NCBI RefSeq assembly: GCF_026151205.1
Contig: NC_087081.1
Span: forward strand, 9,171,246-9,235,245
Source: Bolinopsis microptera
Taxonomy: Eukaryota > Ctenophora > Tentaculata > Lobata > Bolinopsidae
Reading direction: 5' to 3'
Length of the DNA: 64,000 bases
Positions within the stretch are counted from its first letter, which is position 1, and the number at the start of each line of letters is the position of its first letter. This document shows, in pieces, positions 6,601 through 53,493 of this stretch. The notes under the pieces are model-generated. The model was not told the origin of the DNA. It searched no databases and saw only the letters and a program-made list of their open reading frames with translations. The position numbers were made by a program, and so were the translations under genes.

Positions 6601-9600
6601 TTCTCAGGAGAAGAAAACCGGTGGTCTACTGTTTTGAAGAGAACTATTGCGTTACTGTTCTCAGGAGAAGAAAACCGGTGGTCTACTGTTTTGAAGAGAA
6701 CTAGTGCGTTACTTCTCTCAAAAGAAGAAAACCGGTGGTCACTGGTCTACTGTTTTGAAGAGAACTAGTGCGTTTATACTGTTCTCAGGAGAAGAAAACC
6801 GTTGGTCTACTGTTTTGAAGAGAACTGGTAGTATACTACTGTTCTCAGGAGAAGGAAACCGTTGGTCTACTGTTTTGAAGAGAACAGGTGCACTACTGTT
6901 CTCAGGAGAAGGAAACCCTTGGTCTACTGTTTTGAAGAGAACAGGTGCACTACTGTTCTCAGGGGAAGGAAACCGTTGGTCTACTGTTTTGAAGAGAACT
7001 GGTGCACTACTGTTCTTAGGAGAAGGAAACCGTTGGTCTACTGTTTTGAAGAGAACTGGTGCACTACTGTTCATGTTATCAGGAGAAGGAAACCGTTGGT
7101 CTACTGTTTTGAAGAGAACTGGTAGTACACTACTGTTCTCAGGAGAAGGAAACCCTTGGTCTACTGTTTTGAAGAGAACTGGTAGTACACTACTGTTCTC
7201 AGGAGAAGGAAACCCTTGGTCTACTGTTTTGAATAGAACTGGTACACTACTGTTCTTAGAAGAAAACCGTTGGTCTACTGTTTTGAAGAAAACTGGTGCA
7301 CTTCTGCTCCTTGGAGAAGAAAACTGATGCTCTAATATTTTCAAAAGAAAGGAAGTGGTACTTTAGTAAGGTTACTGGTAAACAGTAATAAAAGTCGACT
7401 ATTAGTTTTTGCGAAATTTGGAAAACATTTAGGCTTTGGCCTTCAGCAGAAAAATTATCGGTTTTATCGGTTTTATCTAGATAAAACCTAAATCTTTATC
7501 TGTTTATCTAGATAAAAGATTTCATACCGATAATGGATAGCCTAGTTTGGGAACTATAATTATTGACATTAATAGCTGTTTTACAGGCTCCAATTTGGTT
7601 TCATTCCAGCCAATGGTTTTATATTCACAAAAGGCAGAAGAAGATATTGAACACGGTACTTCCAGGGATTTGATTCAACCTTGCTTTATTGATCAAATAA
7701 TCAAGAAACGTTTAGCTGCAATTTTTCATCACAAGATAACCATTTCAGTTACGATCCCTACGATAAAGTTACCATAGAATCCCAAGTTTACGTGGGTTTC
7801 ATTAATGATGAGCAGATTATTGTGACAGTCAGTATGGGAGGCGATGACTCCAGGAAGAGAAATGTTCAGAAGGAGTATACCATAACTATCAAAGGTAAGT
7901 AACGTAATTACTTGAGTTCAATTAGCATTTAGTGTGTCTTTATTTCAACTTCGCCTGAAACGTTGTTTTTTTATTTTTTGTTTTAAACGTATAAAGTAAC
8001 GTTTTTCTTGGAAGTGTATGCACCGTTGGCGGATGTTTAATTTCTTACATAAGTAACACACGTCTTTCAGCTGTGGCCCCCTTTCTGGATTTTCCGAAAC
8101 TGCAGCAAGCCCCTGATTTTAATAGTGTAACCTGCACTGTCAAAGGTTACCCAATAGAAAGTGTTACTATAACTGCTATCGATAAAAAGAAGGCGACGAC
8201 GGTTATAGGCACTTATGATGTGAGGACAGATGAAAAGGAAGAAGTAAGTACAGATAAAGAAACAGAAACATAAACAGAAACAGAAACAGAAACAGAAACA
8301 GAAACAGAAACAGAAACAGAAACAGAAACAGAAACAGAAACATTACAATTTAATTTATCGTATTGACTAGTTTTCACCCATTTTTCAGTCCAACTGTTTA
8401 TTGTAGACTGTAGAGGGAAACTATTATAAATATCCTTAGTATTTGCATATTTTCTGATGAATACTTTTTACGGCTTTTTAGCAAACAACTAAATTAATCA
8501 TTTTCATTATTCTAGAACGAAGTAGTTTTGTCCGCTTCATTGAAAGATAATCTGAAGAAAGCGAAATGTACAGCCTCCAACAGCCTAATAGAACCAAGAA
8601 ACCGAACTTCTCCTATCACAGAACTCGCCTGGCGTAAGTTGTAGAGTTAATAACATTTAAAAACTATTTTATTTATTGTATCCATAATACAAGATTGTAA
8701 AAAGATAAAAGTCACACTTACATCTACTTTCAAATATTACAATTAAGAATGTATGTTTGTTTGTTTGGGAACCAGCTTTGTTTACTGGTTAATGTTTACT
8801 CAAGAATTTATACATACAATAATATACAATAATTATATTCCTAAATCTGCTAATATAAAACCTAAATAACTCTAAAAATATACTCCACACGAAATTATGG
8901 ACCTGGAAGTAAGATTAAATACATCAGCTTAATACACAAATCAAAACAAAATTCTAGAAGACTGACAGTCTTGTGTTGAAAGACGAATATGATTTAGAAG
9001 CTTATCAAAAAAAATTAAAATCTTAGCCAACCAGGAATCCATAAATCCAAGCAAAACTCTGTCTTAACACATTTCAAACAACAATTTTGTCCACACTACA
9101 CACTTTGCCTCCTTTTATGTAGTGTCTCTTATCTGGCTCGTCGTTTGATCTCTTCTTGAGTTCTAAAACAAGCTTTTGCTGTTCGGCACGTTCCTCTGGA
9201 GACCTATCTGGACTGATAAAGACTTTACTGAAAAGTTCTGAGCTACGGAGATGCCTTGCTCTAGTCAAAATCTGCTGCACGATTGTGGAGCTCGTCAAAG
9301 TCACCTTAACAGGTCTGTCAGCCACTTGTTTCTTATCCTTGGGTTTATTCAAACCAATTCTGCTAGCTTCTATTTTTGGCTTTTCGCCAAGTTCCAACAA
9401 CACTTGAGCGACCTTGTCGCATAACAGCTCACCTTTCTCTTCTTTAATACCAAATAACATCAGATTCCGACTTCGGTCTCCTTCTGCCACAACATCCTTG
9501 ATGACATTCTTCAAAATGTTTCTATCCGAATCCAACAAAGGACCTGCTGCTGAGGTTTTTGATGCCTGTACTGCGGCGCTGTATGTCTTCAACTCTGATT

Positions 9601-12600
9601 TCACAGTATCCTCGACTGATGCTACAACCACAGATTTCAAGTCATCAAGCTGCTTGTCTTTGGCAGCTAGCAGCTCTTTCTGCAATACAACTACTGTTCC
9701 CTGACTGTCAATTACATCGGAGTGCAATTTCTGATTATATTTCTCTAGCTGATTAATGTACAACGACTGTCTATACATAACTTTTAACGCAGCGTTAAGA
9801 CTCTGAGCCATGACTTCCCTGGAGATTTCTCTTTTACCACTGAAACTCTGAGCTGCACACGCGTTAACATGATCTACTTTAGCAAGCCCAAGAGTTTTCC
9901 GGATCCATTCAGCTGCATCATCTTTCACTTCATCAAGCTTATAAGCCACGTATTTCTCCGATTTATACATCACACAACCACGGCACCGGTTAAACAAGCA
10001 AGTCTTATCAACGTAATGATAAGTAACTGATAAGCGAGTACAAACGTATTGAAAAGTGTAATTACTGAACTGAACGTATTGAAAAGTGTAATTACTGAAC
10101 TGACATGTATAACTTGATACCAAACCACTTTTATCGAAATACACTATAAAACATTATTTCCCACTTTTCAGCCAAGACATCATCTGGAATGACTCTAATT
10201 GTAGCGGCTGTTATTGGAATAGCACTTCTCGTTCTTATAATATGGATTGTTTGCGCGTGCGTTGCCATGGCAAGACATCCACAGACCAAGTTTGGAGAAG
10301 CTATGTGCTGTAGAACAGGTGAGAGAGAGATGTGGTCGGTAACAGGGAAGACTTGAAAATCAGAAGAGGGCGTAATTTTCAGTGACCTTCGGGAGAAATT
10401 AAAACTTACATTACAACTCTTTTTAACTATTTTATGAACAGTATTTAAAAAGGAGGTGTGTAACACAATTAAGTCTTGTTACAGTAACAACTGTTTCAGT
10501 AACAATATTACTGTTTCAGGAGCTTACTCGCAGATAGAAAAGATCCCCATGGACCCCTACAAGTTGGAGTACTTTACACTGAACCCAGGAGTTACCCTGG
10601 GAGGAGGTCACTTCGGTATTGTCAGACGAGGAAACTGTACTGCCCTTAAAGATAGGTAGGTCACATGTTAGAGAATTGTACTGCCCTTAAAGATAGGTAG
10701 GTCACATGTAGGTCACTTGTTAGAGAATTGTACTGCCCTTAAAGATAGGTAGGTCACATGTTAGGGAATTGTACTGCCCTTAAAGATAGGCAGGTCACAT
10801 GTTAGAGAATTGTACTGCCCTTAAAGATAGGTAGGTCTCATGTTGGTCATATGTTAGAGAATTGTACTGCCCTTTAAGATAGGTAGGTCACATGTAGGTC
10901 ACATGTTAGAGAATTGTACTGCCTTTAAAGATAGGTAGGTCACATGTTAGAGAATACTTTCGAGGTCACATCACACATGTTATAGTCACGTGTTATTTAC
11001 CTCCCAATGCCACGTCAATTATTATTATTGTAGCACTATGTATTTACACCACCAGTTAACCAGCTGTATTCCAGGGCGGGTGAGAGAACTGATATCGCTA
11101 TTAAAGAGGTTAAACCCTGTATAGACAGGATGAGGAGAGAGGACGATTTGAGACGAGAACGTGACATTATGATGAGGGTATGTGCGGTTAACGCTTTAAC
11201 GTGACATTATGATGAGGGTATGTGCGGTTAACGCTTTAACGTGACATTATGATGAGGGTATGTGCGGTTAACACTTTAACGTGACATTATGATGAGGGTA
11301 TGTGCGGTTAACGCTTTAACGTGACATTATGATGAGGGTATGTGCGGTTAACGCTTTAACGTGACATTATGATGAGGGTATGTGCGGTTAACGCTTTAAC
11401 GTGACATTATGATGAGGGTATGTGCGGTTAACGTGACATTATGATGAGGGTATGTGCGGTTAACGCTTTAACGTGACATTATGATGAGGGTATGTGCGGT
11501 TAACACTTTAAAGTGACATTATGATGAGGGTATGTGCGGTTAACGCTTTAACGTGACATTATGATGAGGGTATGTGCGGTTAACGCTTTAACGTGACATT
11601 ATGATGAGGGTATGTGCGGTTAACGTGACATTGTCACTTTAATATAGAACGTGACATTATGATGAGGGTATGTGCGGTTAACGTGACATTATGATGAGGG
11701 TATGTGCGGTTAACGTGACATTCTCACTTTAATATAGAACGTGACATTATGATGAGGGTATGTGCGGTTAACGTGACATTATGATGAGGGTATGTGCGGT
11801 TAACGTGACATTATGATGAGGGTATGTGCGGTTTAACGTGACATTATGATGAGGGTATGTGCGGTTAATATAACGTGACATTATGATGAGGGTATGTGCG
11901 GTTAGCGCTTTAACGTGACATTATGATGAGGGTATGTGCGGTTAACGCTTTAACGTGGCATTATGATGAGGGTATGTGCGGTTAACGCTTTAACGTGACA
12001 TTATGATGAGGGTATGTGCGGTTAACGCTTTAACGTGACATTATGATGAGGGTATGTGCGTTTAACGCTTTAACGTGACATTATGATGAGGGTATGTGCG
12101 GTTAACGTGACATTGTCACTTTAATATAACGTGACATTATGATGAGGGTATGTGCGGTTAACGCTTTAACGTGACATTATGATGAGGGTATGTGCGGTTA
12201 ACGCTTTAACGTGACATTATGATGAGGGTATGTGCGGTTAACGCTTTAACGTGACATTATGATGAGGGTATGTGCGGTTAACGTGAAATTGTCACTTTAA
12301 TATAACGAAACTTTTCCTTCGAATATCCAAATGTAAGGGTAGTGAAACGGGGTTCAATATTCTGGGAGTTTATTATTAATGTATAATCCCGCAGTTGAGA
12401 TCTCACAGTAACGTACTGCGAATATACGGTTACACGGACGAACCTGATCAGCTGGCTTTAGTCATTGAGTTTGCTGCGTTCGGTAGTTTGGATAAGCTTC
12501 TTATAGTAAGTTGTTACAGTTGTTACGTGTTGTTACAGTTGTTACAGTTGTTACAGTTGTTACAGTGGCACGTGAGCTTTGAACACTGGTATTTGATACA

Positions 12601-15600
12601 ATTTGGCTAACTTTTTTTAAATGATAATCTGAACGACTTGTTATTCTGAACGACTTGTTATTCGAATATAACTATGAATTATGATACACATTTCAGGAAG
12701 CAAGAAAGATGAAGTCAGATGGTTATTTAATGCCTAATGAGCAGATTGAAAACCCGATAAAAGCGTTTGAGTCTAAGCATATTATAGAATTTAGCAGGCA
12801 AATATCTGATGGGATGGACTATGTAGGCAGAAATCAGGTAACTTGATATAACGTTTATATTTTAAACAACCCAATATTATTTAAAATTATAATAGTATTA
12901 TACATTCTGGCAATAAAAGCGATTAAACATCTAACAAGCCTAGAGCAGCAGTTTTTATAAACCTTTAATAATACTTTACATACTTTACATACTTTACATA
13001 CTTTACATGCTTTACATACTTTACATACTTTACATACTTTACATGCTTTACATGCTTTACATACTTTACATACTTTACATACTTTACATACTTTACATAC
13101 TTTACATACTTTACAGGCTTTACATTTAACTAACTCTGTCCAAGATTGTACATCGTGATCTGGCCGCAAGGAATGTAGTAGTGTCAGGAGACGGCGGAGA
13201 TTACGTGTTAAAGATAACAGACTTTGGTCTGGCTAGGGAAATAAGCGACGGTTTGTAACGCTTGTAACGCTTGTAACACTTACATTCTCTTTTGTTCATG
13301 ATCATCCGTTTTTAAACTTACTCGGCTACCAATGGTTAAATTGATTCCAGATATTATGAACGATTCGGGTTCGTATTATTGAATAGACTGGATAAATATT
13401 CAATATTAAATAATGATAAATCTCTCTCCCTCAGATGGGTTTTATGAACGAGTAGAAGGAAAAGAAATCCCAATAAAATGGACAGCACCAGAAAGTTTAA
13501 GAGGCAACATTTACACCTCCAAAAGCGATGTTTGGTCGTACGGGATCACATTATGGGAGATCTGTACCTTAGGGGGCGAGCCCTACGCTGGGTACAACAA
13601 TGCAGAAACCATGGAGAATGTGAGAACGGGGTATCGGTTACAAAAGCCACCCTCCTGTAACATTGAATTGTAAGACTTCTTTACTTTCTCACTATTCTTT
13701 GTATTTGCTTTAGGATCTGAGAATTTGTTTAGGCAATGGGACTAATTGTATCCTATAATATCATTATTATACCGCAATATTGCATTTGTCTCGCTTAAAT
13801 TGTCCATACAAGATGTTAAGGTTAAAGTCACATAGCTAATAAATCACTTTATTAATGACTAACTGATCAATTAATTAATTACCCAATTAATACTGTTCAG
13901 GTATGAGCTAATGACGAGATGTTGGCTTGAGTCCCCTGAAGAGAGACCTACCTTCGCGCACATATTAACTCAGCTTACTAGCTACTCTCAAAAACCATCA
14001 GTATGTATAGTATAGTATTGTATAGTATTGTATAGTATTGTATAGTATTGTATAGTATTGTATAGTATTGTATAGTATTGTATAGTATTGTATAGTATTG
14101 TATAGTATTGTATAGTATTGTATAGTATTGTATAGTATTGTATAGTATTGTATAGTATTGTATAGTATTGTATAGTATTGTATAGTATTGTATAGTATTG
14201 TATAGTATTGTATAGTATTGTATAGTATTGTATAGTATTGTATAGTATTGTATAGTATTGTATAGTATTGTATAGTATTGTATAGTATTGTATAGTATTG
14301 TATAGTATTGTATAGTATTGTATAGTATTGTATAGCATTGTATAACATTGTATAGTATTGTATAGTATTGTATAGTATTGTATAGTATTGTGTAGTATTG
14401 TATAGTATTGTATAGTATTGTATAGTATTGTATAGTATTGTATATTATTGTATAGTATTGTATAGTATTGTATAGTATTGTATAGTAGACCCTGATCATT
14501 AGAAACACCCCTAAAAGTTCGTTTTTGAAAAAAAATGTAAAACATCCGTAATTTCTTTTCTGTTTTAGTTTTGCATTTAATTTTTTGTATGCGTATAGAA
14601 AATTAATACGGCTTAAAAATGAGATGTCCGGCGACCTCCTAGCTCACTCACAAGACTCAGTAGGAGTGATTGAACTGCGAGGGACAATTGAGGCTAACGA
14701 ATTTACTCATTATTTTCAAAAAAGAACATTCTCGTGTTACGTCCATGATATCCAAGTTGCAAGTATAATCCATAGTGATTATACTTGATCGAGATCTAAG
14801 CTTTAATTATTCGAGGTGAAAATGAGGCTAACCACCTTTTGAGAGGGTGAAATGAGGCTAACAAGTATACTTTTGTGTATATTTTCGAGATGGTTCGGTA
14901 TTGTGACTATCTAATATGTCAACAATAAAAATGTATTCATCCTCTTCAAGCTTAACATTTCAGAAATCGCCGAGTCTACTTGTAGGAGGCTAAAATGAGG
15001 CTAATAAAGAATTTGACCGCATTTTAACTTTAATGTACGGAAACATGTTATAGACCCACTATAAAACTTGTAATTGTAGCCCGAAGGTTATTGAGACTTT
15101 ATCGAAACTTATGTGAGGTTGGATTGAGGCTACCTTCCCTCCTTGAGGCAAAATTGAGGCTAACAGATACACTACGCAGAAAAACGTCACTGTGCCAGCT
15201 GTCAAGTAGTTGCTGAGCAGCAGCAGCAGTTAGATGAAGAAAATGAAGTTGAGGAAGGAAATGTATTCTAGAGCTGTTGGCTAGAGTAGGCCCCTTACTT
15301 CTATGGAGCTCTCTGGCCAATTGCTCTGGCAATGCTACCCATGGGGCCATGTAATACCACATGATCTGATATCATGCCAAATTAGACTCTAAACTATAAA
15401 GTATAATAAAAATGGAACTGTTTGAGAAATTTTACAAGGGAAGTCTTTATTTTGCTTGACACATCTCAAACGCAAGGAAATATTTTTAAACAAATTATAA
15501 ATATACATTTTTCCACAAGCTTTAATGTAAGCTGATTAATGCATTAATGAATAAAATTCTACGTCAAGCTGCAGAATAACTCCAATATTTAAATCAATAC

Positions 15601-21600: not shown

Positions 21601-24110
21601 AAGCTTTAATGTAAGCTGATTAATGCATTAATGAATAAAATTCTACGTCAAGCTGCAGAATAACTCCAATATTTAAATCAATACCTCTTCATGGTAGTAC
21701 AACTGGCGAGAAGGCTCAAAAAAAGCAGTGCAATTAGTTTTGAAATGTGCGATTTTGAAAATAATAAGTGGCTTTCAAAAGGGTCAAAAGTGGAGTTATA
21801 TAAAGAAAATAAAAGCATCCAACATTAAAACTATCACTTATAAAATATTACAATAAGCAGGAGTTAGCCTCAATCTTACCTCTCAAATGAATACAGGTTA
21901 GGCAGAAACAATTTGAAATTGAAGGGCTAGTCCGAAGAAGCAGTAGAACAAGAAATGCAATGAACACAACCTTGATAGTTAGCCTTATTTTACCCTCCAT
22001 CAAAAGACAGAAAGGGTAGGTGGAGTCTACCATCGACCTAAAGTATCCATATAATGTATACCAGGGCAAAGGATAGTTTAAAGGACGTTATTGTTCAAAC
22101 ATAATTCAAAAATCAGAAAAGATCTGTTAGCCTCATTTTACCCTCCATTAGAAGGAAATGGGTGGGCCAGCCTTCGACCTAGAGCATCCATCTCATGTAT
22201 ACCAGGGCAAAGGATAGTTTAAAGGACGTTATTGTTCAAACATAATTCAAAAATTAGAAAAGATTTGTTAGCCTCATTTCCCCCTCCATTAGAAGGAAAA
22301 AAGGGGTCGGCTGGGCCAGCTTTCAACCTAAAGAATCCATATCATGTATTTTAGGTCAGAGGATACTTGGATACGTTATTATTCAAATATAATTCACAAC
22401 TTAGTAATGACTTGTTAGCCTCATTTCCCCCTCCATTAGAAGGAAAAAAGGGGTTGGCTGGGCCAGCCTTCAACTTAGAGCATCCATCTCATGTAATTTA
22501 GGTCAGAGGATACCTTGATAGACGTTATTATTCAAATATAATTTCAAAATTAAAAATAATCTGTTAGCCTCACTTTACCCTCCATTAGAAGAAAACAAGG
22601 GGTCGGTTGGGCAAGCCTTCGATCTAGAGCATCAATCTCATCTATTTTAGGTCAGAGGATACTTTGATAGACACTATTATTCAAAAATAATTCAAAAATT
22701 AGTAATAACTTGTTAGCCTCATTTTTCCCTCAATTAGTGAAAAAATTTCCCTCTTCTCTCTGGATTCTGAAAGAGTGAGATCTGATGAATCGATTAAACA
22801 TGTTTAAGCTTTTATAGTATGCTTGGAAGGTGTTATTAGGAGACAAAATGTAAATGACTCGTTAGCCTCAATTTGCCCTCGACTAAATGCTTCAAAACTT
22901 TTGTTAATCGAAACAAGATTAGTTGAACTATAGATATATGAAATATCATATGCCTATCTTAAAAGTTCTTCCTGTGACAATCTTCTAAAGTTAAAATGGG
23001 AAAATGTGGTCCATCTCGTGCGAACTTTCCTAATGACCAGGGTCAGTATTGTATAGTATTGTATAGTATTGTATAGTATTGTATAGTATTGTATAGTATT
23101 GTATAGTATTGTATAGTATTGTATTGTATAGTATTGTATAGTATTGTATATTATTGTATAGTATTGTATAGTATTGTATTGTATAGTATTGTATAGTATA
23201 GTATTGTATAGTATTGTATAGTATTGTATAGTATTGTATAGTATTGTATAGTATTGTATAGTATTGTATAGTATTGTATAGTATTGTATAGTATTGTATA
23301 GTATTGTATAGTATTGTATTGTATAGTATTGTATAGTATTGTATATTATTGTATAGTATTGTATAGTATTGTATAGTATTGTATAGTTTTGTATAGTATT
23401 GTATAGTATTGTATAGTATTGTATAGTATTGTATAGTATTGTATAGTATTGTATAGTATTGTATAGTATTGTATAGTATTGTATAGTATTGTATAGTATT
23501 GTATAGTATTGTATAGTATTGTAACGGACTATCTGACCGTCTACCATGATCAATTATTGTAAACCTGAGAAGTTTTTAGGATGATAATTATTATCGTTTA
23601 TAAACGTTATAAATGAACGCAAATGGATAGCTCCTTCCAAAATATAGCTATGAGACATATCAACTGATTTGTTAATTGAACCGGTTAAATTAAATAATTG
23701 ATTAATTAGTTACCCATTATTAACCATCTCCACGCTCCCAGGACTATGTCCACATAGAGAGTCTATACGAAACAGACCTAAACCTAACACTGCGGCTCCA
23801 GACCCTGGAACCACCTCCCACCACCACCCCAAGCAACAACCACCACCCCTCCTCGCTGCCCCACACTCCTGTACGTGAGCACGGCGGTGGTGCTGGGTCA
23901 CATGACTCTTGTAACTCTCCGCGTGATTATCGCCAGCCCGATGACGGACAACCCGCCGCGGGGTCCATGGTCGAAAATGAGTACACGGTGGAGCCGTCTA
24001 CTTTACCTCATAATGTAACTATTTCACGGGACAGCGCTTTAAACGTGAACCGTGGTGACCATGGTAACCGTGGTAGCATGAAACACGGTCAAGGTGTCCC
24101 TCGTTGCTGA
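544..24110 (+). CDS. Ig-domain receptor tyrosine kinase (19 exons, 5' end not in view)
   Basis: Single-pass membrane receptor that should bind an extracellular ligand and phosphorylate tyrosines inside the cell. Coding exons: 544-647, 2534-2600, 2757-2914, 3041-3128, 3455-3563, 5439-5587, 5757-5889, 7716-7894, 8071-8243, 8516-8633, 10172-10318, 10520-10655, 11075-11177, 12395-12505, 12697-12837, 13145-13250, 13435-13669, 13901-14000, 23742-24110. All phases match and give 907 residues plus stop. Counting from the first full codon: Ig1 about 1-125 (C40/C41, W54, C110), Ig2 about 195-328 (C208, W225, C270), Ig3 about 330-425 (C350, C404), membrane helix 432-458, kinase about 495-785, tail 786-907. 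Kinase landmarks: LGGGHFG 501-507, K530, E548, gatekeeper I578, HRDLAARN 641-648, DFG 664-666, APE 691-693. HRDLAARN and the TLGG-PY segment resemble FGFR/VEGFR-type kinases, but WTAPE in place of WMAPE is less typical. The signal peptide is missing, so the gene begins upstream or in an unrecognised exon. Orthology is unassigned. Confidence 0.93.
648..2533. other. Intron 1 in view, AT-rich, no element recognised
   Basis: The 1.9-kb stretch is AT-rich and lacks a convincing exon. Open frames at 639-890 and 2405-2605 show no protein motif except where the second overlaps exon 2. Confidence 0.5.
2534..2600 (+). CDS. RTK exon 2 (Ig1, first Cys and Trp)
   Basis: The acceptor is TTTCTCAG and the donor GTTAGT. 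Phase goes from 0 to 1. The residues LCC and YLWFN give the Cys and the core Trp of an Ig domain, and the split Gly codon joins in frame to the exon at 2757. Confidence 0.72.
2757..2914 (+). CDS. RTK exon 3 (Ig1 middle)
   Basis: Acceptor TCACAG, donor GTCAGT, phase 1 to 0. It ends in GYYQ, and the next exon begins CFVGTY, so the Ig signature Y-x-C is cut exactly by the intron. Confidence 0.82.
3041..3128 (+). CDS. RTK exon 4 (Ig1 second Cys)
   Basis: Acceptor TTGTCAG, donor GTAAGC, phase 0 to 1. The first codon is the second Ig cysteine (C110). The segment is tyrosine- and lysine-rich after it. Confidence 0.8.
3455..3563 (+). CDS. RTK exon 5 (Ig1-Ig2 linker)
   Basis: Acceptor ACGTCAG, donor GTGAGT, phase 1 to 2. 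It encodes about 36 residues with no recognised motif and is placed by phase and position. The transposon-like foldback begins only 26 bases after its donor. Confidence 0.75.
3590..4833. mobile_element. Non-autonomous foldback transposon with G-tract ends
   Basis: The 1244-bp insert lies in the kinase intron after exon 5. It is bounded by AACTGAAC at 3582-3589 and 4834-4841, an 8-bp direct repeat (9 bp if the adjacent C is counted) that looks like a target duplication. It begins with a run of about 14 G followed by CCAATGGCATAAA and ends with the complement, ATGCCATTGG plus a run of 11 C. Each end is also a hairpin of about 100 bp. The centre is a larger foldback: about 3785-3990 pairs with about 4095-4310, and a third partial copy lies at 4355-4445. 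There is no transposase frame. The 8-bp duplication suggests hAT; a 9-bp one would suggest a Mutator-like element. Confidence 0.72.
4858..5436. repeat. C-rich minisatellite with acceptor-like units
   Basis: About 16 imperfect copies of a roughly 30-36-bp unit contain CCTCCCTCACAGTATCAGG. The array ends at the true acceptor of exon 6 at 5438. Each copy has a pyrimidine run followed by ACAG and TCAG, so each resembles a 3' splice site. Long open frames across it are products of the repeat. Confidence 0.9.
5439..5587 (+). CDS. RTK exon 6 (Ig2 first Cys)
   Basis: Acceptor TTTTTCAG, donor GTAAGT, phase 2 to 1. It carries [10 protein letters not shown] with C208 and ends in the first base of the Ig2 Trp codon. 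A C-rich array of acceptor-like repeats lies directly upstream. Confidence 0.83.
5757..5889 (+). CDS. RTK exon 7 (Ig2 Trp and middle strands)
   Basis: Acceptor ACCAG, donor GTTCGT (weak), phase 1 to 2. It opens by completing W225 and includes possible N-glycosylation sites. A hAT-like element with its target duplication begins six bases into the following intron. Confidence 0.78.
5896..7552. mobile_element. hAT-like non-autonomous element with 8-bp TSD
   Basis: GTTTGGGA occurs at 5896-5903 and again at 7545-7552. Between them the insert 5904-7544 starts TAGGCTATCCA and ends with the complement, TGGATAGCCTA. Further inside, both ends carry TTTATCTAGATAAA palindromes and CGATAA motifs. Perfect 8-bp duplications and short terminal inverted repeats are the hallmark of hAT transposons. 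No transposase is encoded. Without it the host intron would be about 177 bp, close to the other short introns. It carries an internal 57-bp minisatellite. Confidence 0.85.
6440..7330. repeat. 57-bp minisatellite inside the hAT-like element
   Basis: About 15 copies of a unit with the core TCTACTGTTTTGAAGAGAAC. The unit is near 57 bp, a multiple of three, so both strands stay open for about 200 codons (6704-7327 forward, 6739-7344 reverse). I treat these frames as by-products, since the array lies inside a transposon inside an intron. Confidence 0.88.
7716..7894 (+). CDS. RTK exon 8 (Ig2 second Cys)
   Basis: The acceptor GTTTAG was chosen because it alone keeps the frame: upstream in this frame is a TGA, and the join gives S269-C270-NFSSQD, the second Ig2 cysteine. 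Donor GTAAGT, phase 2 to 1. The pyrimidine tract before it is poor, so the exact start is less sure than the exon itself. Confidence 0.75.
8071..8243 (+). CDS. RTK exon 9 (Ig3 first Cys)
   Basis: Acceptor CTTTCAG, donor GTAAGT, phase 1 to 0. [10 protein letters not shown] gives Ig3 C350. The core Trp is not evident, so Ig3 may be a divergent set. Confidence 0.85.
8244..8342. repeat. ACAGAA hexamer array at a splice donor
   Basis: The donor GTAAGTACAGATAAAG leads directly into about 14 AACAGA units, starting within 20 bases of exon 9. Confidence 0.85.
8516..8633 (+). CDS. RTK exon 10 (Ig3 second Cys)
   Basis: Acceptor TTCTAG, donor GTAAGT, phase 0 to 1. [10 protein letters not shown] is a classic Ig C-terminal strand with C404 followed by a likely N-glycosylation site (NRT). 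Confidence 0.87.
9074..9970 (-). CDS. LINE-type ORF1 protein, antisense in RTK intron
   Basis: This is an open frame of 298 codons on the minus strand from the Met at 9970; the frame stays open to 10144, but the extra part contains a 30-bp duplication and looks non-coding. It has a coiled-coil-like middle, then [34 protein letters not shown] and [18 protein letters not shown]. This order (RRM-like fold, basic strand, SPDxxPEER) is familiar from ORF1 proteins of non-LTR retrotransposons, which coat the element RNA as nucleic-acid chaperones. A nearby CRGC may be the remnant of a zinc-binding motif. No reverse transcriptase frame is present, although LINE copies usually keep their 3' part. It lies wholly in the intron 8634-10171 opposite the receptor gene. 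Confidence 0.75.
   Translation of the reverse strand: MYKSEKYVAYKLDEVKDDAAEWIRKTLGLAKVDHVNACAAQSFSGKREISREVMAQSLNAALKVMYRQSLYINQLEKYNQKLHSDVIDSQGTVVVLQKELLAAKDKQLDDLKSVVVASVEDTVKSELKTYSAAVQASKTSAAGPLLDSDRNILKNVIKDVVAEGDRSRNLMLFGIKEEKGELLCDKVAQVLLELGEKPKIEASRIGLNKPKDKKQVADRPVKVTLTSSTIVQQILTRARHLRSSELFSKVFISPDRSPEERAEQQKLVLELKKRSNDEPDKRHYIKGGKVCSVDKIVV
10022..10105. repeat. Short direct duplication (about 36 bp x2)
   Basis: Two adjacent copies of a stretch containing GAAAAGTGTAATTACTGAAC, just upstream of the LINE ORF1 frame on the minus strand. Confidence 0.75.
10172..10318 (+). CDS. RTK exon 11 (transmembrane helix)
   Basis: Acceptor TTTTCAG, donor GTGAGA, phase 1 to 1. It encodes a hydrophobic stretch of about 27 residues (432-458, with [16 protein letters not shown]) followed by a basic residue and a Cys pair, as expected for a type I receptor stop-transfer segment. 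Confidence 0.92.
10520..10655 (+). CDS. RTK exon 12 (juxtamembrane and glycine loop)
   Basis: Acceptor TGTTTCAG, donor GTAGGT, phase 1 to 2. It includes juxtamembrane tyrosines 477, 488 and 492 and the ATP-binding loop LGGGHFG at 501-507. Its last 20 or so bases and its donor are repeated about seven times in the following intron. Confidence 0.93.
10634..10960. repeat. Tandem array duplicating an exon end plus 5' splice site
   Basis: The unit (about 40-53 bp) is made of the last 20 or so bases of exon 12 (core TGCCCTTAAAGATAG) followed by the donor GTAGGTCACATG. The coding copy is first, with six more in the intron, one or two with small changes. Every copy keeps AG|GTAGGT. Confidence 0.93.
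11075..11177 (+). CDS. RTK exon 13 (catalytic Lys, helix C)
   Basis: Acceptor TTCCAG, donor GTATGT, phase 2 to 0. DIAIKEVKP provides ATP-anchoring K530, and RRERDIMMR provides helix-C E548 by alignment with FGFR-type kinases. The final 17 coding bases plus the donor form the core of a repeat of about 28 copies. Confidence 0.93.
11159..12305. repeat. About 28-copy array of exon end plus 5' splice site
   Basis: The unit is mostly 40 bp, with 31-bp variants. It contains CGTGACATTATGATGAGG (end of exon 13) joined to GTATGTGCGGTTAACG (donor and intron start). Several insertions of a variant with GTCACTTTAATATA punctuate the array. Nearly all copies keep an intact GG|GTATGT donor. Confidence 0.95.
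12395..12505 (+). CDS. RTK exon 14 (hinge and gatekeeper)
   Basis: Acceptor CCGCAG, donor GTAAGT, phase 0 to 0. HSNVLRIYG and [17 protein letters not shown] match kinase strands 4-5 and the hinge, with gatekeeper I578 and E579. Confidence 0.93.
12506..12565. repeat. 9-bp TTGTTACAG array from a splice donor
   Basis: GTAAGTTGTTACAG is the donor of exon 14, and TTGTTACAG then repeats five to six times. Each unit also ends in an acceptor-like TTACAG. Confidence 0.85.
12697..12837 (+). CDS. RTK exon 15 (short kinase insert, helix E)
   Basis: Acceptor TTTCAG, donor GTAACT, phase 0 to 0. It encodes a short polar insert with Y600 and then [12 protein letters not shown], the helix E that precedes the catalytic loop. 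Confidence 0.92.
12968..13122. repeat. 10-bp ATACTTTACA array before exon 16
   Basis: About 15 copies of ATACTTTACA (some with ATGC) lie about 25 bases before the acceptor of exon 16. The reverse strand reads as a KVCKVC pseudo-peptide. Confidence 0.9.
13145..13250 (+). CDS. RTK exon 16 (HRDLAARN and DFG)
   Basis: Acceptor TCCAAG, donor GTTTGT, phase 0 to 1. It contains the receptor-type catalytic loop HRDLAARN with D643 and the Mg-binding ITDFGLAR with D664. Confidence 0.96.
13251..13282. repeat. 10-bp repeat starting at the donor of exon 16
   Basis: GTTTGTAACG is followed by CTTGTAACGC and a further near copy, so the donor itself is the first repeat unit. Confidence 0.7.
13435..13669 (+). 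CDS. RTK exon 17 (activation loop, APE, helix F)
   Basis: Acceptor CCCTCAG, donor GTAAGA, phase 1 to 2. It has one activation-loop tyrosine (Y677), [23 protein letters not shown] and [14 protein letters not shown] is more usual in Src, Tec and Eph kinases than in FGFR-like receptors. Confidence 0.96.
13901..14000 (+). CDS. RTK exon 18 (C-lobe end)
   Basis: Acceptor TGTTCAG, donor GTATGT, phase 2 to 0. [13 protein letters not shown] is the conserved CW-x6-RP motif that closes a tyrosine kinase domain. The donor sequence runs straight into the 10-bp satellite. Confidence 0.93.
14001..14487. repeat. 10-bp satellite (TATAGTATTG)n, first block
   Basis: The array begins at the donor of exon 18 (GTATGTATAGTATAGTATTG) and runs about 48 units with rare variants (TATAGCATTG, TATAACATTG). 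The reverse strand is open as a YTILYNTIQ pseudo-peptide, which I reject as a gene. Confidence 0.97.
14488..16960. mobile_element. 2473-bp inverted-repeat element, copy 1
   Basis: The ends are GACCCTGATCATTAGAAA and the complement of GACCCTGGTCATTAGGAAA, so the terminal inverted repeats match at 16 of 18 bases. The flanks in the satellite overlap by AGTA, a possible 4-bp target duplication. The left half has about seven GAGGCTAA-type motifs on the + strand (14690-15156). The right half has eight GTTAGCCTC motifs, the same word inverted (15779, 15894, 16042, 16183, 16330, 16479, 16628, 16777), in units of about 148 bp. Subterminal repeats of this kind bind transposase in known DNA transposons. 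Only frames under 90 codons exist and none resembles a transposase, so it would be non-autonomous. Family unassigned. Confidence 0.75.
16961..17529. repeat. 10-bp satellite, second block
   Basis: Same TATAGTATTG unit as at 14001, with a few shortened units near its left end (for example TATTGTATTG). Confidence 0.97.
17530..20002. mobile_element. 2473-bp inverted-repeat element, copy 2
   Basis: Same sequence as 14488-16960, offset exactly 3042 bp. I saw no difference where I compared it, including the translated small frames. Confidence 0.8.
20003..20571. repeat. 10-bp satellite, third block
   Basis: Copy of block 16961-17529, offset 3042 bp. The one difference I found is C at 20567 where the previous copy has T (17525). 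Confidence 0.97.
20572..23044. mobile_element. 2473-bp inverted-repeat element, copy 3
   Basis: Third copy, again at an offset of exactly 3042 bp, with the same ends and motif layout. After it the satellite differs in detail from the earlier blocks, so the amplification stops here. Confidence 0.8.
23045..23523. repeat. 10-bp satellite, last block
   Basis: TATAGTATTG units with variants. It ends at GTAACGGACT, about 220 bp before the acceptor of exon 19. Confidence 0.97.
23742..24110 (+). CDS. RTK exon 19 (C-terminal tail, stop)
   Basis: Acceptor CTCCCAG. It is open in the required phase 0 for 122 codons and ends in TGA at 24108-24110. It starts DYVHIES and has further tyrosines (794, 848, 866) that could recruit SH2 proteins. 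Its GC-rich, Pro/His-rich sequence contrasts with the AT-rich flanks, which supports coding. The 9.74-kb intron before it is the largest of the gene. Confidence 0.88.
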   Translation, partial: DYVHIESLYETDLNLTLRLQTLEPPPTTTPSNNHHPSSLPHTPVREHGGGAGSHDSCNSPRDYRQPDDGQPAAGSMVENEYTVEPSTLPHNVTISRDSALNVNRGDHGNRGSMKHGQGVPRC

Positions 24111-29445: not shown

Positions 29446-29453
29446 GCATCATG

Positions 29454-34260: not shown

Positions 34261-34363
34261 ATGGTGAATGCTACGCTTCCTCATCTTACCCTCCATCAAA
34301 CCCCTTCCCCTAACATCAACACTTCCCTCTACGATACCATGCAGAAATTCCTTACCTTGATCA
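34261..34363 (+). CDS. SPDY: Speedy exon 1
   Basis: From ATG to donor GTGAGT, phase 1 at the end. It encodes 34 residues ending in the first core helix (MQKFLTLI). An acceptor-like TTTCAG at 34201-34206 could mean a non-coding 5' exon splices here. Confidence 0.75.
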
Positions 34364-37300
34364 GTGAGTTATTTTTAGTTTACATGATCTTTGAGTTTAC
34401 ATGATCTCTGATCAGCGAGATATTTTGATCTAAGATAAGTGATAACATTATATTATTATTATCAGTAAGTCTGTGAAACTGTTACCTTTCGGTTATAGTG
34501 AGCTATTTAGTTTTAACCGTCGTCTGGAATGTTCTAAATTATCTGGAAAGTTCTAAATTGTGGTTTCTGGAAAGTTCTAAATTGTGGTTTCTGGAAAGTT
34601 CTAAATGTTGTTTCCCAGGCACGGACCAGCTGATCCAAGTCTTGCTACAGTGCGACAGACACAACCAAGTCTGTGACAAGGTAGACAAGCATGTATTAAA
34701 CTTTAAATAATTATAAGTTACATACCTGCACTGCGTATAGTTTAGTATCATGGGTATTATATTTAGAATTTATTTTTATACATGCGAAGGAAAACTTACA
34801 GTTAAATGTACCATCTCAGTGGTTGTTGGCGATAGTGTTCGAGTATTTCCAGCGCTCCAAACTCCTGCATTATCAGTTCACCAGAGAAAAGTTCTTCATA
34901 GCTCTGTGAGTACCGAATAGTTCACATAGTTTATTTAAATTCAAAGCTCTGTTGGCAATGAAATATGAATAGTTTGAATAGTTTTTCCTTATTCACAACA
35001 CTGTCAATATACAAGGGTCTGCGAGTAATAATACATAGTTTACACAATGTTATGTTGTGAAACGTTAATTAATAAATTAATCACTCAAAAAATTTGGAAA
35101 CGATCGTAGGGAAAATAATAAAATTGATAACATTTTAAATGAAGATACAAATTCACGTCTCGATCTCTAAGAGTAATTACAACCAGTACTACCACATCAA
35201 AGTTAAGTGATCGAAAACAAAAATTCTCAACTTTAATTAAAATTTATAAAACTGGTTAGCGGGTTCATCACTGACTCTGTATATATTTGCATCGCTGTTT
35301 AGTATCCTGCAACATTATAGAGACTGCAACTGCAGTTAGAGACTGCAACTGCAGTTAAACCAAAAAGGAATTGGGCTCGTTTGTTAAAAGTGGAAGCTGG
35401 ATTTTCATCAGATGTAACCTGGCCACACGATAAACTGATGGTAAGCGGTTTTTTGCTCAGTCAAATAAAACAATCTGCCACTTGGTGACCAACAGTTGTG
35501 TGTAAAATTTAGTAGCTATGTGTAAAACTGTAGTCGTGACAATGTGAGTTCGGAGTTATAATTTATGCGCATAATATATTATGTATAATATATGATAATA
35601 TACAATGTCATAATAATATGTACAAGTTGTAACTTTAACACTGGTTATAGTGTTATGTGTCGCTATATGGACGTGTAATTTGTTGGAGTGTGGTAGTATA
35701 GCGCACTAAGTCTAACAATTTGATGAGTGAATGTTACTGTGATGAGTTTTATGGGTGTAAGCTTTCTTAAAATGTAGCATTATTCGTTAGATTGATAATG
35801 TGGTAGTTCAAGTAAAATGTAATATAATTATAACATTTTATCATGTTAAATGTACTAAAAAATACAATATAATATGTAAAAAAACATAATATATTATATT
35901 AATAACGTTTAAACGTTATCCTGGCCATGCTTGCGGGCTCAAGCTAGTTTTACGAGCTGTATTAACCTGAAGTTAGCAAGCGTCCCTAACCACATTCGTT
36001 TTACATCACACGGGCGTGGTTAGATTTTCACAAACATCTACAGTCGTGGCTATACTATATCACACAGCTATAACAGGCGTGGCTATACTATATCACACAC
36101 AGCTATAACAGTCGTGGCTATACTATATCACACACAGCTATAACAGGCGTGGCTATACTATATCACACACAGCTATAACAGGCGTGGCTATACTATATCA
36201 CACAGCTATAACAGTCGTGGCTATACTATATCACACACAGCTATAACAGTCGTGGCTATACTATATCACACACAGCTATAACAGGCGTGGCTATACTATA
36301 TCACACAGCTATAACAGTCGTGGCTATACTATATCACACAGATATAACAGTCGTGGCTATACTATATCACACACAGCTATAACAGGCGTGGCTATACTAT
36401 ATCACACAGCTATAACAGTCGTGGCTATACTATATCACACACAGCTATAACAGTCGTGGCTATACTATATCACACACAGCTATAACAGGCGTGGCTATAC
36501 TATATCACACAGCTATAACAGTCGTGGCTATACTATATCACACAGCTATAACAGTCGTGGCTATACTATATCACACACAGCTATAACAGTCGTGGCTATA
36601 CTATATCACACACAGCTATAACAGTCGTGGCTATACTATATCACACACAGCTATAACAGTCGTGGCTATACTATATCACACACAGCTATAACAGTCGTGG
36701 CTATACTATATCACACACAGCTATAACAGTCGTGGCTATACTATATCACACACAGCTATAACAGTCGTGGCTATACTATATCACACACAGCTATAACAGT
36801 CGTGGCTATACTATATCACACACAGCGATAACAGTCGTGGCTATACTATATCACACACAGCTATAACAGTCGTGGCTATACTATATCACACAGCTATAAC
36901 AGTCGTGGCTATACTTTATCACACAGCTATAACAGTCGTGGCTATACTATATCACACACAGCTATAACAGTCGTGGCTATACTATAACTCACACAGCTAT
37001 AACAGTCGTGGCTATACTATATCACACACAGCTATAACAGTCGTGGCTATACTATATCACACACAGCTATAACAGTCGTGGCTATACTATATCACACACA
37101 GCTATAACAGTCGTGGCTATACTATATCACACACAGCTATAACAGTCGTGGCTATACTATATCACACACAGCTATAACAGTCGTGGCTATACTATATCAC
37201 ACACAGCTATAACAGTTGTGGCTATACTATATCACACACAGCTATAACAGTCGTGGCTATACTATATCACACACAGCTATAACAGTCGTGGCTATACTAT

Positions 37301-41142: not shown

Positions 41143-41201
<59 letters not shown>

Positions 41202-41986: not shown

Positions 41987-42018
<32 letters not shown>

Positions 42019-51000: not shown

Positions 51001-53493
51001 TAATGTAGCTACAGTGTAGCTGGATTGCCAGTGTAGTTCAATTGCCCATTGGGCCTGGCAGTTAGTATATATTATAAGTGTGTAGATGCATTGTCGAGCT
51101 TTCCGGTACGGTAATAGTGGCCCACTATTAGTGGGGGTACACGGTTATAACTTATAATGAAGAGTTACAGTGTACTGTGTACTGAGAGGCGTACTGTAAA
51201 CTGTAGGGCTTTAAGGTAAAAAATACCCATTGCCCCCCCCCCCCCCCCCTTTAGGTGTACTGCTCGCGGGTTTAATCAGCTAAGTCTACACTAGCTTTAC
51301 ACTTTACAGTCTACAGTGTACTACACTATCTTTACAGTCTACAGTGTACTACACTAGTTCTACAGTCTACAGTCTACACTATCTTTACAGTCTACAGTGT
51401 ACTACACTAGCTCTACAGTCTACAGTGTACTACACTAGCTTTACAGTCTACAGTGTACTACACTAGCTCTACACTGCAACACTAGTGGGGAGTGTTATAA
51501 TTATGTAGATAATATCCTAGACTACAATGTAGTCCTGGTGATATAAGAAGCACACACCCACTATGAAGCACACACCCACCCTCCATGACCACCCTAGATT
51601 TGTCCGACTGTGTAGGGTACGGGTTGTTACGAGTAATGAACTGGACAGTAAATAACATGTTATCTGGTGAACAGTTAGCACTGTGTTAAGTTAGGGTACT
51701 GAATATAGCCGGTAATCATAACAATATCTGCTAACTGTTAGAAAATGTTCACTTTATGGAATTTCAAATCATGGTTTATAATATTATATAAGCATATTCT
51801 TATATACTTATACCCGATTTAGTTGTGCTATATAATATCAAATGAATCGTATGGCGTGATTGTGTCAGATGCTCACTGACCCGCTGTCACGTTTCTGATG
51901 GGCTGTCACGTTTCTGATGGGCTGTCACGTTTCAAGCCAGCCTGATGTGCCAGCCTCCTGGTGTGAAATGTGGCAGTCAACTCTATAACTTGTAGCAGTT
52001 AACGAAACCTCAGATTAGATTTTATAATCTTCAAAAATAAAATTGAATTTTAATTCAAAATCATGATTTGGTGGTAGGTGATATTTATCATTAGGGCGTA
52101 GTTTTATCTGTGTGTGTAACAGTACACCCTAAAATAACAGCTAAGTGTTGAGTCGACCCGCCCATCTATTAGATATCTCGTTTTTTTGGTATAATTTCTA
52201 CCAACTAATGAGATGTAATAGATATATTTTCTAGATATCTAAAATTTGATTCTTGTGTAAAATTTCAAATGGATTTCCCCACGATCATTTAATATTGAGT
52301 GAAATTAATTGTTCAAAAGTAACCGACCGTTATCATGATGGCATATTACCTAAAGATAATGATACAAATTAATCTAAGTTGAGCATAAAACAATTATGGC
52401 AATTTTCTGAAATCTTAATAAAATCTTAATATAATAGTGATTTCACTGAGTCCGTCTGTAGAGGATTAATTCGTGCTTAATGTTTGTTAAATGTCATGAC
52501 GGTGTTAAAATGAGTAACACAAACACGTCATGACAATATTGTATAGAAAAGTCATTGTAGAATGTAGATGCATCTGAGATTGGGCTGTCTTGGTTTTGTT
52601 GAATGTGACACAAGACTAAAACCTTTACACACAATTTTTTACTCAATGTTACACACACTGTTACTACATAAGTCATATTATAATAATGTTACACCCCTTT
52701 TTACACCCTTTTTACACTCCTTTTTACACTCCTTTTTACACGATTAATGTTTCAGATACCTGGCAATAGAGTTTGAGGAGGACGAGGACCGGAAGGTGAA
52801 GGATGTTCTGTTGGACTACATGTTACACCACGATAACATCTGGACAAGTACGTTCCTTTTATTAATTAATACAATATATTAAGTTTAATTATTAATTCAT
52901 TATTTGATTTAGTTAAAGTTTTGTAGTAATTTAGTTATTATAGGAAATTGTATTTTTTGTGGGTGTATTTTCTTTCTGGGATTTTTCACTGCCCTTGTCT
53001 TTTTCATGCGAAAATTACTGTCTAATAATAATCTTTGGTATGTGAATTGAAGATGACAGTTATGTTTCATCAGGTAAGCGACAGTTCATAAAGAAGAAAG
53101 ACAAGTACTGGAAAAAGTTAGGTTTCCGGTGCATGGTCACACGACAGCGACTTGAACAGGTTTGTCAGTTTGTCAGTCTGTTTACGTGCAATGTCAGTTT
53201 GTCAGTCTGTTTACGCGTATTGTCAGTTTGTCAGTCTGTTTACGTGTATTGTCAGTTTGTCAGTCTGTTTACGTGTATTGTCAGTTTGTCAGTCTGTTTA
53301 CGTGTATTGTCAGTCTGTTTACTGTAACAGGTTCCTCTCTTTGATCTCCATATTATTATAACAGGGGCTGTATAACGGGGCTGTAAAACTCCGTCCACTA
53401 CGTAATCTCCAACATCTCTTGTGTTACGTATCCCTTGTTCGGTTAATCTCTGTGTCTGTCCCGTCTGTCCCGTGTAATACGTCCGGTGAGTGA
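34261..53493 (+). CDS. SPDY: Speedy/RINGO-like CDK activator (6 exons)
   Basis: Speedy/RINGO proteins bind CDK1 and CDK2 and activate them without being cyclins, acting in meiotic maturation and S-phase control. Exons: 34261-34363, 34619-34680, 34802-34905, 52756-52847, 53074-53159, 53365-53493. Phases agree and give 191 residues plus stop. The Speedy core is clear: QKFLTLI then DQLIQVLLQCD, then PSQWLLAIVFEYFQRSKL (vertebrate DKYLLAM-VYFKRA), then FFIALYLAIEFEEDED (vertebrate LFLALYLANDMEEDEE), then a W-containing loop and KKLGFRCMVTRQRLEQ (vertebrate RM-xRAxVSRRCCEE). The ATG at 34261 is in a good context (CACCATGG) with an in-frame TAA upstream. It is shorter than vertebrate members, with almost no N-terminal tail. 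One intron is 17.85 kb; the others are 0.1-0.3 kb. Confidence 0.88.
34536..34610. repeat. SPDY: 25-bp repeat before Speedy exon 2
   Basis: About three copies of a unit with GGAAAGTTCTAAATTGTGG lie directly upstream of the acceptor at 34618. Confidence 0.85.
34619..34680 (+). CDS. SPDY: Speedy exon 2
   Basis: Acceptor TTTCCCAG, donor GTAGAC, phase 1 to 0. It encodes TDQLIQVLLQCDRHNQVCDK, the start of the Speedy core. Confidence 0.86.
34802..34905 (+). CDS. SPDY: Speedy exon 3
   Basis: Acceptor ACTTACAG, donor GTGAGT, phase 0 to 2. It carries the best-conserved helices (WLLAIVFEYFQRSKLLHY and REKFFIAL). Confidence 0.92.
34906..36039. other. Start of the giant Speedy intron
   Basis: AT-rich with a short duplicated AGAGACTGCAACTGCAGTTA near 35325. 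No other feature seen. Confidence 0.5.
36040..37792. repeat. 35-37-bp satellite in the Speedy intron
   Basis: About 48 copies of a unit with GTGGCTATACTATATCACAC and CAGCTATAACAG. Two length forms differ by one extra CA or AC step. Early copies carry GGCGTGG, later ones GTCGTGG, so the array is ordered. Confidence 0.95.
37980..38425. promoter_or_regulatory. CCAAT/CACGTG cluster inside the Speedy intron
   Basis: Seven CCAAT boxes, all on the + strand (about 37985, 38014, 38143, 38281, 38333, 38375, 38416), mix with CACGTG at about 37989, 38126, 38168, 38189 and 38399. CCAAT binds NF-Y and CACGTG binds bHLH-ZIP factors such as USF, Myc/Max or TFEB. The density suggests an enhancer or an alternative promoter. 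No binding is shown. Confidence 0.45.
38426..41140. other. Intron DNA, no gene recognised
   Basis: Small repeats include AGGAATATGT about four times at 39080-39118 and a GTTGAGTGTTGTTCAC duplication at 39950-39990. A second CCAAT/CACGTG group lies at 40110-40280. ORFs here lack motifs. Confidence 0.5.
41143..42052. repeat. Long (GA)n / (GAGG)n tract
   Basis: GA dinucleotides, then about 580 bp of nearly pure GAGG, then mixed GA/GAGG. The whole 910 bp is purine-only on the + strand, able to form a triplex or G-quadruplex. It ends close to CTGACAG at 42055. Confidence 0.97.
42053..43530. other. Intron DNA between repeats
   Basis: No gene. A GA stretch occurs near 42350. A dispersed short repeat (TATTATATTATAAAGGAGCA) at about 42713 recurs at about 48444. 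Confidence 0.5.
43535..43945. repeat. 22-bp minisatellite
   Basis: About 18 copies of a unit with GTCAGGGCCTTTACTGTAAA, almost invariant. Confidence 0.95.
43946..45043. other. Intron DNA between repeats
   Basis: AT-rich. I see no exon, element or repeat here. Confidence 0.5.
45044..45435. repeat. 26-bp and 10-bp arrays
   Basis: About eight copies of a unit with TAGGTCACAGCGGTCCCCTT (45063-45260), then after a 60-bp gap about ten copies of CTGTGTGACT (45335-45432). Confidence 0.92.
45970..46048. repeat. ACCAGTCACAG repeat
   Basis: About six imperfect copies of a 10-11-bp unit (ACCAGTCACAG, ACCAGTAACAG). Confidence 0.8.
46268..47278. repeat. 34-bp minisatellite with 40-bp variants
   Basis: About 28 copies of a unit with CACGCTCACTTCGGGAGATG. 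Every few units there is a 6-bp insertion (TATTCT), so a higher-order pattern of variants is visible. Confidence 0.95.
47279..50475. other. Intron DNA rich in CACGTG
   Basis: No gene is recognised. CACGTG sites occur at about 47671, 48894, 48907, 48931, 48954, 49227, 49257 and 49760. ATTGG boxes flank the first. A GA-rich stretch lies at 49470-49520. Confidence 0.5.
50476..50625. repeat. 14-bp array carrying CACGTG
   Basis: About eight copies of TATCACGTGCTAAA (or TACA), each with a CACGTG palindrome. It could act as a dense bHLH-ZIP site cluster. Confidence 0.85.
51295..51480. repeat. 27-28-bp CTACAGTGTACTACACTA array
   Basis: About five imperfect copies of a unit with TCTACAGTGTACTACACTA; TGTA and TACA make it partly palindromic. 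Confidence 0.88.
51481..52680. other. End of giant Speedy intron
   Basis: AT-rich; a triplicated GGGCTGTCACGTTTCTGAT-type stretch lies at 51880-51935. No exon found. Confidence 0.5.
52756..52847 (+). CDS. SPDY: Speedy exon 4
   Basis: Acceptor GTTTCAG, donor GTACGT, phase 2 to 1. Its first residues YLAIEFEEDED complete the motif begun in exon 3, which ties it to the exon 17.85 kb upstream. The acceptor is preceded by a (TTTTTACACTCC)-type repeat. Confidence 0.92.
53074..53159 (+). CDS. SPDY: Speedy exon 5
   Basis: Acceptor CATCAG, donor GTTTGT, phase 1 to 0. It is lysine-rich, with DKYWKKLGFRCMVTRQ matching the end of the Speedy core. The donor is the first unit of the repeat that follows. 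Confidence 0.9.
53160..53330. repeat. SPDY: 29-bp repeat starting at the donor of Speedy exon 5
   Basis: The donor GTTTGTCAGTTTGTCAGTC begins about six units of TCAGTCTGTTTACGTGTATT type, filling most of the intron. Confidence 0.92.
53365..53493 (+). CDS. SPDY: Speedy exon 6 (terminal)
   Basis: Acceptor TAACAG; open for 42 codons to TGA at 53491-53493. The stop lies inside a perfect donor consensus (G|GTGAGTGA at 53486), so the exon could instead splice onward to an unseen exon with a different C-terminus. Confidence 0.65.
   Translation, partial: GLYNGAVKLRPLRNLQHLLCYVSLVRLISVSVPSVPCNTSGE

Follow-up and report, generated by a model that had tools for sequence, protein, structure and literature searches.

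The question raised by this stretch of the Bolinopsis microptera genome is why so many of its tandem arrays lie at exon borders, and whether they point to duplication of splice-site DNA or to the birth of introns. The window, by which we mean the whole 64,000-nucleotide stretch that was analysed (C10:9171246-9235245 of a genome searched as 264.65 Mb in 232 contigs), carries such arrays in two genes, which are unrelated, as had been claimed from the sequence alone. Gene A lies on the forward strand, with a start at or before 2.7 kb and an end at about 24.1 kb, and is a predicted receptor-type tyrosine kinase; its kinase part matches PF07714 (3.1e-78), its kinase exons give a single open frame once spliced, and the top PDB match of the kinase is an EGFR construct containing the kinase twice, followed by the RET, TIE-2, and FGFR kinases. 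Gene B (about 52.7 to 53.2 kb) has two exons matching Spy1 (Speedy, PF11357; 5.3e-7) and is, on this match, Speedy/Spy1-like. The last coding exon of gene A (about 23742..24110, +) runs to a stop and is in phase with the donor at 14001; for the splice-frame check, this tail exon was begun 3 bp earlier than 23742, which left the phase unchanged.

Several gene A introns contain larger structures. In the last intron, which spans 14001 to about 23741, a segment of about 3.04 kb is present three times in tandem (14001-23523; 99.4 to 99.7% identity), and each copy bears the 10-bp (GTATAGTATT) array seen at 14001, a pattern that would fit duplication of the segment by recombination between arrays. 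The intron at 3564-5438 holds an element at 3590-4840 with similar sequence at both ends (GGCATAAA(A)TGGAG... and CCATTTTATG repeats), and the C-rich array whose end lies close to the acceptor at 5438 follows directly after this element. An antisense open frame of 359 amino acids (9074-10153, −) lies within the intron at 8634-10171; it looks like the first open reading frame of a retroelement.

Arrays in the window were called with TRF, and offsets are given as the left end of the array relative to the donor. The sequence-only reading had named seven donors with an array beginning at or next to them, and this was borne out at all seven, with left ends between −20 and +6 bp. Two arrays straddle the exon border, each with its left end at −20 bp. 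The first (10636..10955, +) follows the exon at 10520..10655 (+), the 3' 20 bp of which form the 5' part of the repeat unit; it has seven units of about 41/52 bp, made of these 20 bp of exon plus GTAGGTCACATG..., and the donor GT of 10656 is intact in six of the seven, the seventh reading GC. The second (11158..12283, +) is built in the same way from the 3' 20 bp of the exon at 11075..11177 (+) plus GTATGTGCGGTTAACGCTTT, in about 28 copies of about 40 bp; GGGTATGTG and the donor GT are kept in 28/28 units, and an in-frame stop is found 24 bp past the first donor, at 11178. At the remaining donors, (ACAGAA)15.5 begins 6 bp past 8244 (8250..8342, +), (AGTTGTTAC)6.3 begins 3 bp past 12506 (12509..12566, +), (TTGTAACGC)3.2 begins 2 bp past 13251 (13253..13281, +), and (GTATAGTATT)48.8 begins on the GT of the last-intron donor of gene A at 14001, at offset 0 and including no exon base (14001..14487, +). 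In gene B, 5.4 copies of a 29-bp unit begin 2 bp past the donor at 53160 (53162..53318, +). The accompanying claim that at least five donors are part of the first unit is true only if partial overlap is counted; the donors at 10656, 11178, and 14001 are wholly contained in the first unit, whereas those at 12506, 13251, and 53160 overlap it in part.

At the acceptors, the same reading held up in part. A C-rich array of 15.8 copies (4872..5420, +) ends 18 bp ahead of the acceptor at 5438, (ATACTTTAC)17.2 (12971..13125, +) ends 19 bp ahead of 13144 (not the 25 bp first given), and the 12-bp array of gene B (52689..52741, +) ends about 14 bp (formerly about 13 bp) ahead of 52755. The fourth site, 34618, is preceded by 3.1 copies of a 24-bp unit (34542..34614, +), and its candidate exon encodes 30 amino acids with no Pfam match. 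In 17 introns of gene A, 4/18 arrays begin 0 to 10 bp past a donor compared with 0.47 expected (p 0.0006), and two further arrays straddle donors; the array in the intron at 12838 sits away from its donor. At the acceptor side (16 introns), the right end of 3/11 arrays falls no more than 30 bp from an acceptor compared with 1.28 expected, which is not significant (p 0.12). The earlier assertion that arrays lie at exon borders more often than scatter would give is thus upheld in gene A for donors and not for acceptors.

Gene A was treated as the discovery set, and an independent set of introns was assembled from outside the window, using four unrelated families of the same genome, the kinesins, myosins, tyrosine kinases, and dyneins. 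Profiles were made from the genome's own copies, and splice sites were set by spliced alignment, blind to repeats. Loci were picked by eye from match lists as multi-exon clusters, a choice that favours short introns; the dynein sample comprises 8 of 13 picked loci. Ten introns with a margin of <3 or a negative alignment score were dropped, as were two spurious junctions in the L043 array and, by the same rule, three dynein junctions. This left 146 introns from kinesins, myosins, and tyrosine kinases and 25 from dyneins, 171 in total. At 13 of the 171, an array starts between −53 and +10 of the donor (L035, L040, L043, L046, L048 [two introns], L050, L057, L069, L071 [two introns], L079, and L085). 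Examples come from kinesins and a dynein: L043 has 52 copies of 33 bp, L069 has 25 copies of 35 bp (30 bp of exon plus GTAAG), L048 has 21.7 copies of GTGAGGTTAATTA beginning on the GT, and dynein L085 has 12 copies of 65 bp (about 53 bp of exon plus GTTAGTTTCCT). Five of the donor-anchored arrays have at least 10 copies, and within each of these the copies are 92 to 97% alike. No array straddles a donor in the myosins or in the tyrosine kinases taken from outside the window, where the anchored arrays are small and have no more than 5.7 copies.

Other structures were encountered at these loci. Compared with L093, a recent segmental duplicate, L033 has an insertion of about 0.93 kb (L033:941-1871) whose two ends share a repeat of about 9 bp and which contains tandem arrays in inverse orientation (TAAGACAACAT / TGTTGTCTTA); it is probably a DNA transposon with array-like termini. 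At L069:2546-3888, two neighbouring 35-bp arrays have units that look mutually reverse-complementary, possibly a transposon with long inverted array arms. At L050, arrays lie ahead of and across the acceptor (4244-4566 and 5417-5948), and the order TTTTCAG, GAG, GTAACA makes each unit resemble a tiny exon; in one unit (acceptor 5937), the acceptor and a donor-like GT are adjacent. The donor-straddling units supply a donor. Three dynein heavy chain regions (C3:8954112-8955092, C1:6100405-6101388, and C4:10070770-10071132) fall within open frames that are 3357, 3703, and 2539 amino acids long and apparently have few or no introns; elsewhere in the genome, dynein genes are matched one exon at a time. 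Of two ionotropic glutamate receptors of the genome, L092 has ML032222a, a receptor of Mnemiopsis leidyi, as its best PDB match; for L091, chains named as kainate and AMPA-type receptors score higher in total, ML032222a being represented there by a 256-residue chain.

The comparison of array starts with random positions, which had been proposed along with the original observation, was carried out on the 171 introns by sliding each wholly intronic array at random inside its own intron. Seven of the 56 intronic arrays begin 0 to 10 bp past the donor, compared with 1.6 to 1.7 expected (p 0.0003 to 0.0008). With TRF score cut-offs of 40, 50, 60, and 80, we observed 7, 7, 7, and 5 such arrays compared with 2.14, 1.64, 1.41, and 0.69 expected (p 0.005, 0.0008, 0.0001, and 0.0002, respectively). 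There was no excess 11 to 30 bp from donors (2 compared with 2.95 expected). On the acceptor side, 3/56 arrays end within 10 bp compared with 1.67 expected (p 0.23); a weak excess was seen only for arrays of at least three copies ending 11 to 30 bp upstream of the acceptor (4/22 compared with 0.98; p 0.011). Counting array starts by density in a broader zone (−45 to +10) of the kinesin, myosin, and tyrosine kinase introns gave a modest, 2-fold excess (12 compared with 5.7; p 0.014), and the placement test, which is conditioned on intron and array length, is the cleaner of the two.

For donors that lie inside the first unit of an array, the background was taken as the share of intron bases in first units of interior arrays; interior arrays resembling transposon ends (L033 and L069) were retained and enlarge this background, and the L043 and L085 donors were moved 4 bp by eye onto the GT of the first copy beforehand. 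Donors are inside first units in 7/171 introns compared with 2.80 expected (P 0.023). For arrays with 5 or more copies, the count is 4/171 compared with 0.52 (P 0.002), and for those with 10 or more it is 4/171 compared with 0.38, about 10-fold (P 0.0006). Last units show no such enrichment for acceptors (2/171; P 0.77). Among the 12 arrays of at least 10 copies, a small sample like the 171 introns themselves, five have their start between −53 and +5 relative to a donor, and one ends on an acceptor.

The whole genome was then represented by a word search that is not tied to proven exons, in which three copies of an octamer separated by 8 to 38 bases were counted, with the word read backwards as the control. 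The donor words AGGTAAGT, AGGTGAGT, and AGGTATGT gave 1260, 1231, and 1857 triple matches compared with 11, 183, and 31 backwards (summed, 4348 compared with 225; ratios of 7- to 115-fold), and the acceptor word TTTTCAGG gave 204 compared with 85. A scrambled non-donor word, AAGTAGGT, also scored 558 compared with 0 backwards; the counts are therefore strongly over-dispersed, and we use them as support only. Because each long array yields many matches, separate clusters were also counted by eye among the matches listed. For the three donor words, in the same order, this gave 0.24 per Mb (7 clusters in 28.9 Mb), 0.51 per Mb (9 in 17.6 Mb), and 0.34 per Mb (6 in 17.4 Mb); the rates were about 0.12 per Mb for AAGTAGGT (8 in 69.4 Mb) and 0.08 per Mb for the acceptor word (16 in 192 Mb). 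Single words outside arrays in a 363-kb sample occurred 8 (AGGTAAGT), 6 (AGGTGAGT), 22 (AGGTATGT), 9 (AAGTAGGT), and 26 (TTTTCAGG) times, so the difference is not explained by word frequency. Inside the arrays of that sample, the asymmetry between donor and acceptor words is absent, with TTTTCAGG found 40 times, L050 accounting for 37 of these, and the three donor words found 3, 1, and 0 times.

The reading that we prefer, with a probability of about 0.68, is that these are mirage-type minisatellites, sitting at least in part on pre-existing introns, whose duplication and expansion begin at donors and which persist because splicing uses the first donor. A short stretch lying on or spanning the 5' splice site, with 0 to 53 bp of exon and the first intron bases, would be duplicated in tandem; the arrays have this anatomy, presumably as the outcome of such a molecular event. 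The duplication would then expand downstream within the intron, and expansion is seen as up to 52 copies, with the copies 92 to 97% alike in the five longer donor-anchored arrays outside the window. The 5'-most donor would stay in use, with the array and its decoy donors leaving with the intron. Such use of the first donor fits the 10 arrays that hold a whole donor, since in 9/10 the unit is not a multiple of three (taking the 10656 unit as 41 bp) and in 8/10 an in-frame stop comes ahead of the second donor when the frame is read on through the first. Conserved protein is also obtained when exons are joined at the first donor, which lends indirect support to undisturbed splicing. Donors would be hit more than acceptors, presumably because duplication at a donor spares the first, earliest-transcribed site, whereas duplication at an acceptor, were the first acceptor chosen, would carry array sequence into the mRNA.

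Tolerance might be the whole explanation: duplications would arise evenly, those in exons and across acceptors would be purged, and those across donors would survive on a first donor that still works, with no mutational bias at donors. We consider this unlikely. It agrees with the count of straddling arrays among the 171 introns (6 to 7 at donors compared with 1 to 2 at acceptors) and with duplications of fewer than three copies, which are not clearly enriched at donors (3 compared with about 1.7) and so stay near background. It cannot, however, place purely intronic arrays 0 to 10 bp past the donor (7 compared with 1.6), and it leaves unexplained the roughly 10-fold excess at donors of arrays with 10 or more copies (4 compared with 0.38). 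Tolerance leaves the 0-to-10-bp excess unaccounted for, and we therefore propose a mutational or expansion bias at donors as well. The idea that splice-site DNA seeds duplication is supported for donors, by the within-intron starts, the first-unit test, and the tandem words, and is not supported for acceptors, apart from the weak excess at 11 to 30 bp.

That excess, together with arrays lying directly behind a minimal donor, would suit a packing effect, in which introns shrink by deletion to their splice signals and arrays so that arrays flank both sites. We regard this as very unlikely. No array lies within 10 bp of the donor and also within 30 bp of the acceptor, either outside the window (0/56) or in gene A (0/18), and we rejected packing since not one array hugs both intron ends. 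Donor-anchored arrays leave other intron sequence, 69 to 416 bp outside and 130 to 173 bp and 9.2 kb in gene A; the absence of an excess 11 to 30 bp from donors also speaks against packing, which has no means of copying exon sequence into introns.

It had also been suggested that the arrays are raw material for, or a by-product of, intron birth, with tandem duplication of AGGT-containing exon DNA making the introns and the arrays as remnants. Some units do carry AG/GT within repeated exon sequence, and in gene A none of the four placed array-anchored kinase-domain donors matches any of 24 sampled tyrosine kinase positions, one of which is matched by the intron at 12838. Outside the window the suggestion found no support. 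Of the 13 anchored introns there, 11 could be placed on profiles (a match being the same position, within one column, and phase), and 6/11 share position and phase with a paralogue lacking an anchored array, compared with 53/154 other introns. Donors exceed expectation in first units, but acceptors in last units do not. The paralogue test led us to reject intron birth as the main reading for most of the placed outside cases, and we consider it highly improbable. Since 6/11 anchored introns are common to a paralogue, arrays often sit on pre-existing introns, and they seem to lengthen existing introns more than to create new ones. An artefact of assembly or gene models, with wrong exon borders or misplaced arrays, is barely credible: the proposed gene A exon at 7587-7655 has an in-frame stop ahead of its donor, leaving the borders near the 6472-7349 array unsure, but conserved protein results when the kinase exons, like those of the outside genes, are joined at the array-bearing donors, and the same anatomy recurs on several contigs.

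Starting points of minisatellites and the lengthening of introns are old questions, and this genome allows one to ask whether DNA at splice sites is duplicated in tandem more readily than usual; the dozens of intact decoy donors behind a true donor are also a natural test of how the spliceosome chooses the first 5' splice site. A model of intron gain by tandem genomic duplication reportedly goes back to Rogers in 1989, with potato RdRp said to be a case. The likeness is that exon-border DNA with AG/GT is duplicated in tandem; here, however, the duplications lengthen introns, 6/11 of the placed ones being shared with a paralogue, and do not make new ones. Zhuo in 2007, judging by the title, reportedly proposed tandem arrays as the origin of human introns; both accounts link tandem arrays with splice sites, but there the arrays are the origin, whereas here they begin at existing donors.

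To our knowledge, the mirage pattern is known by name only from amphioxus, and searches of open PMC papers turned up no report of it in ctenophores; looking up the word "minisatellite" in three ctenophore papers gave no match (PMC8527503, PMC11797021, and PMC12221973). In amphioxus, mirage minisatellites are described in Adh3 and the globins BflGb6/BflGb9 (PMC3087553) and in troponin C and PGBD5 (PMC3902484), and they are reported there not to disturb splicing (PMC3087553 and PMC3902484). For the amphioxus globins, the intron-birth route is also proposed (PMC3087553). The likeness lies in tandem units across an exon-intron boundary with the splice signal repeated. This anatomy was found at 10656 and 11178 in the window and at L035, L043, L046, L050, L069, and L085 outside it; the arrays at 8244, 12506, 13251, and 53160 start within the intron and that at 14001 has no exon base, which places them outside the anatomical definition. 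Straddling units are 20 to 65 bp outside the window and about 40 to 52 bp inside it, within the range of short minisatellites, and the units of outside-window arrays holding a whole donor, at 13 to 65 bp, can be set against the 10 to 72 bp given for Adh3, the globin cases having units of 150 to 160 bp (PMC3087553).

The anatomy itself is thus of the known mirage kind, and its presence outside amphioxus suggests that mirages are no mere cephalochordate oddity. Because the very distant ctenophore and amphioxus both show boundary-copying arrays, 5' splice sites might be general mutational hot spots for the birth and expansion of minisatellites, perhaps through transcription-linked structures at the start of the intron, and this may be a widespread and little-noticed route of intron growth in animals; we offer this extension tentatively, as a possibility with somewhat less than even odds. 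What is new here is the host, a ctenophore where the amphioxus cases are cephalochordate, and the donor bias and statistical scale: in amphioxus, donor and acceptor sides are both reported, with no such statistics in the passages concerned, whereas in this genome the arrays favour donors, reach 52 copies, and were tested over 171 introns.
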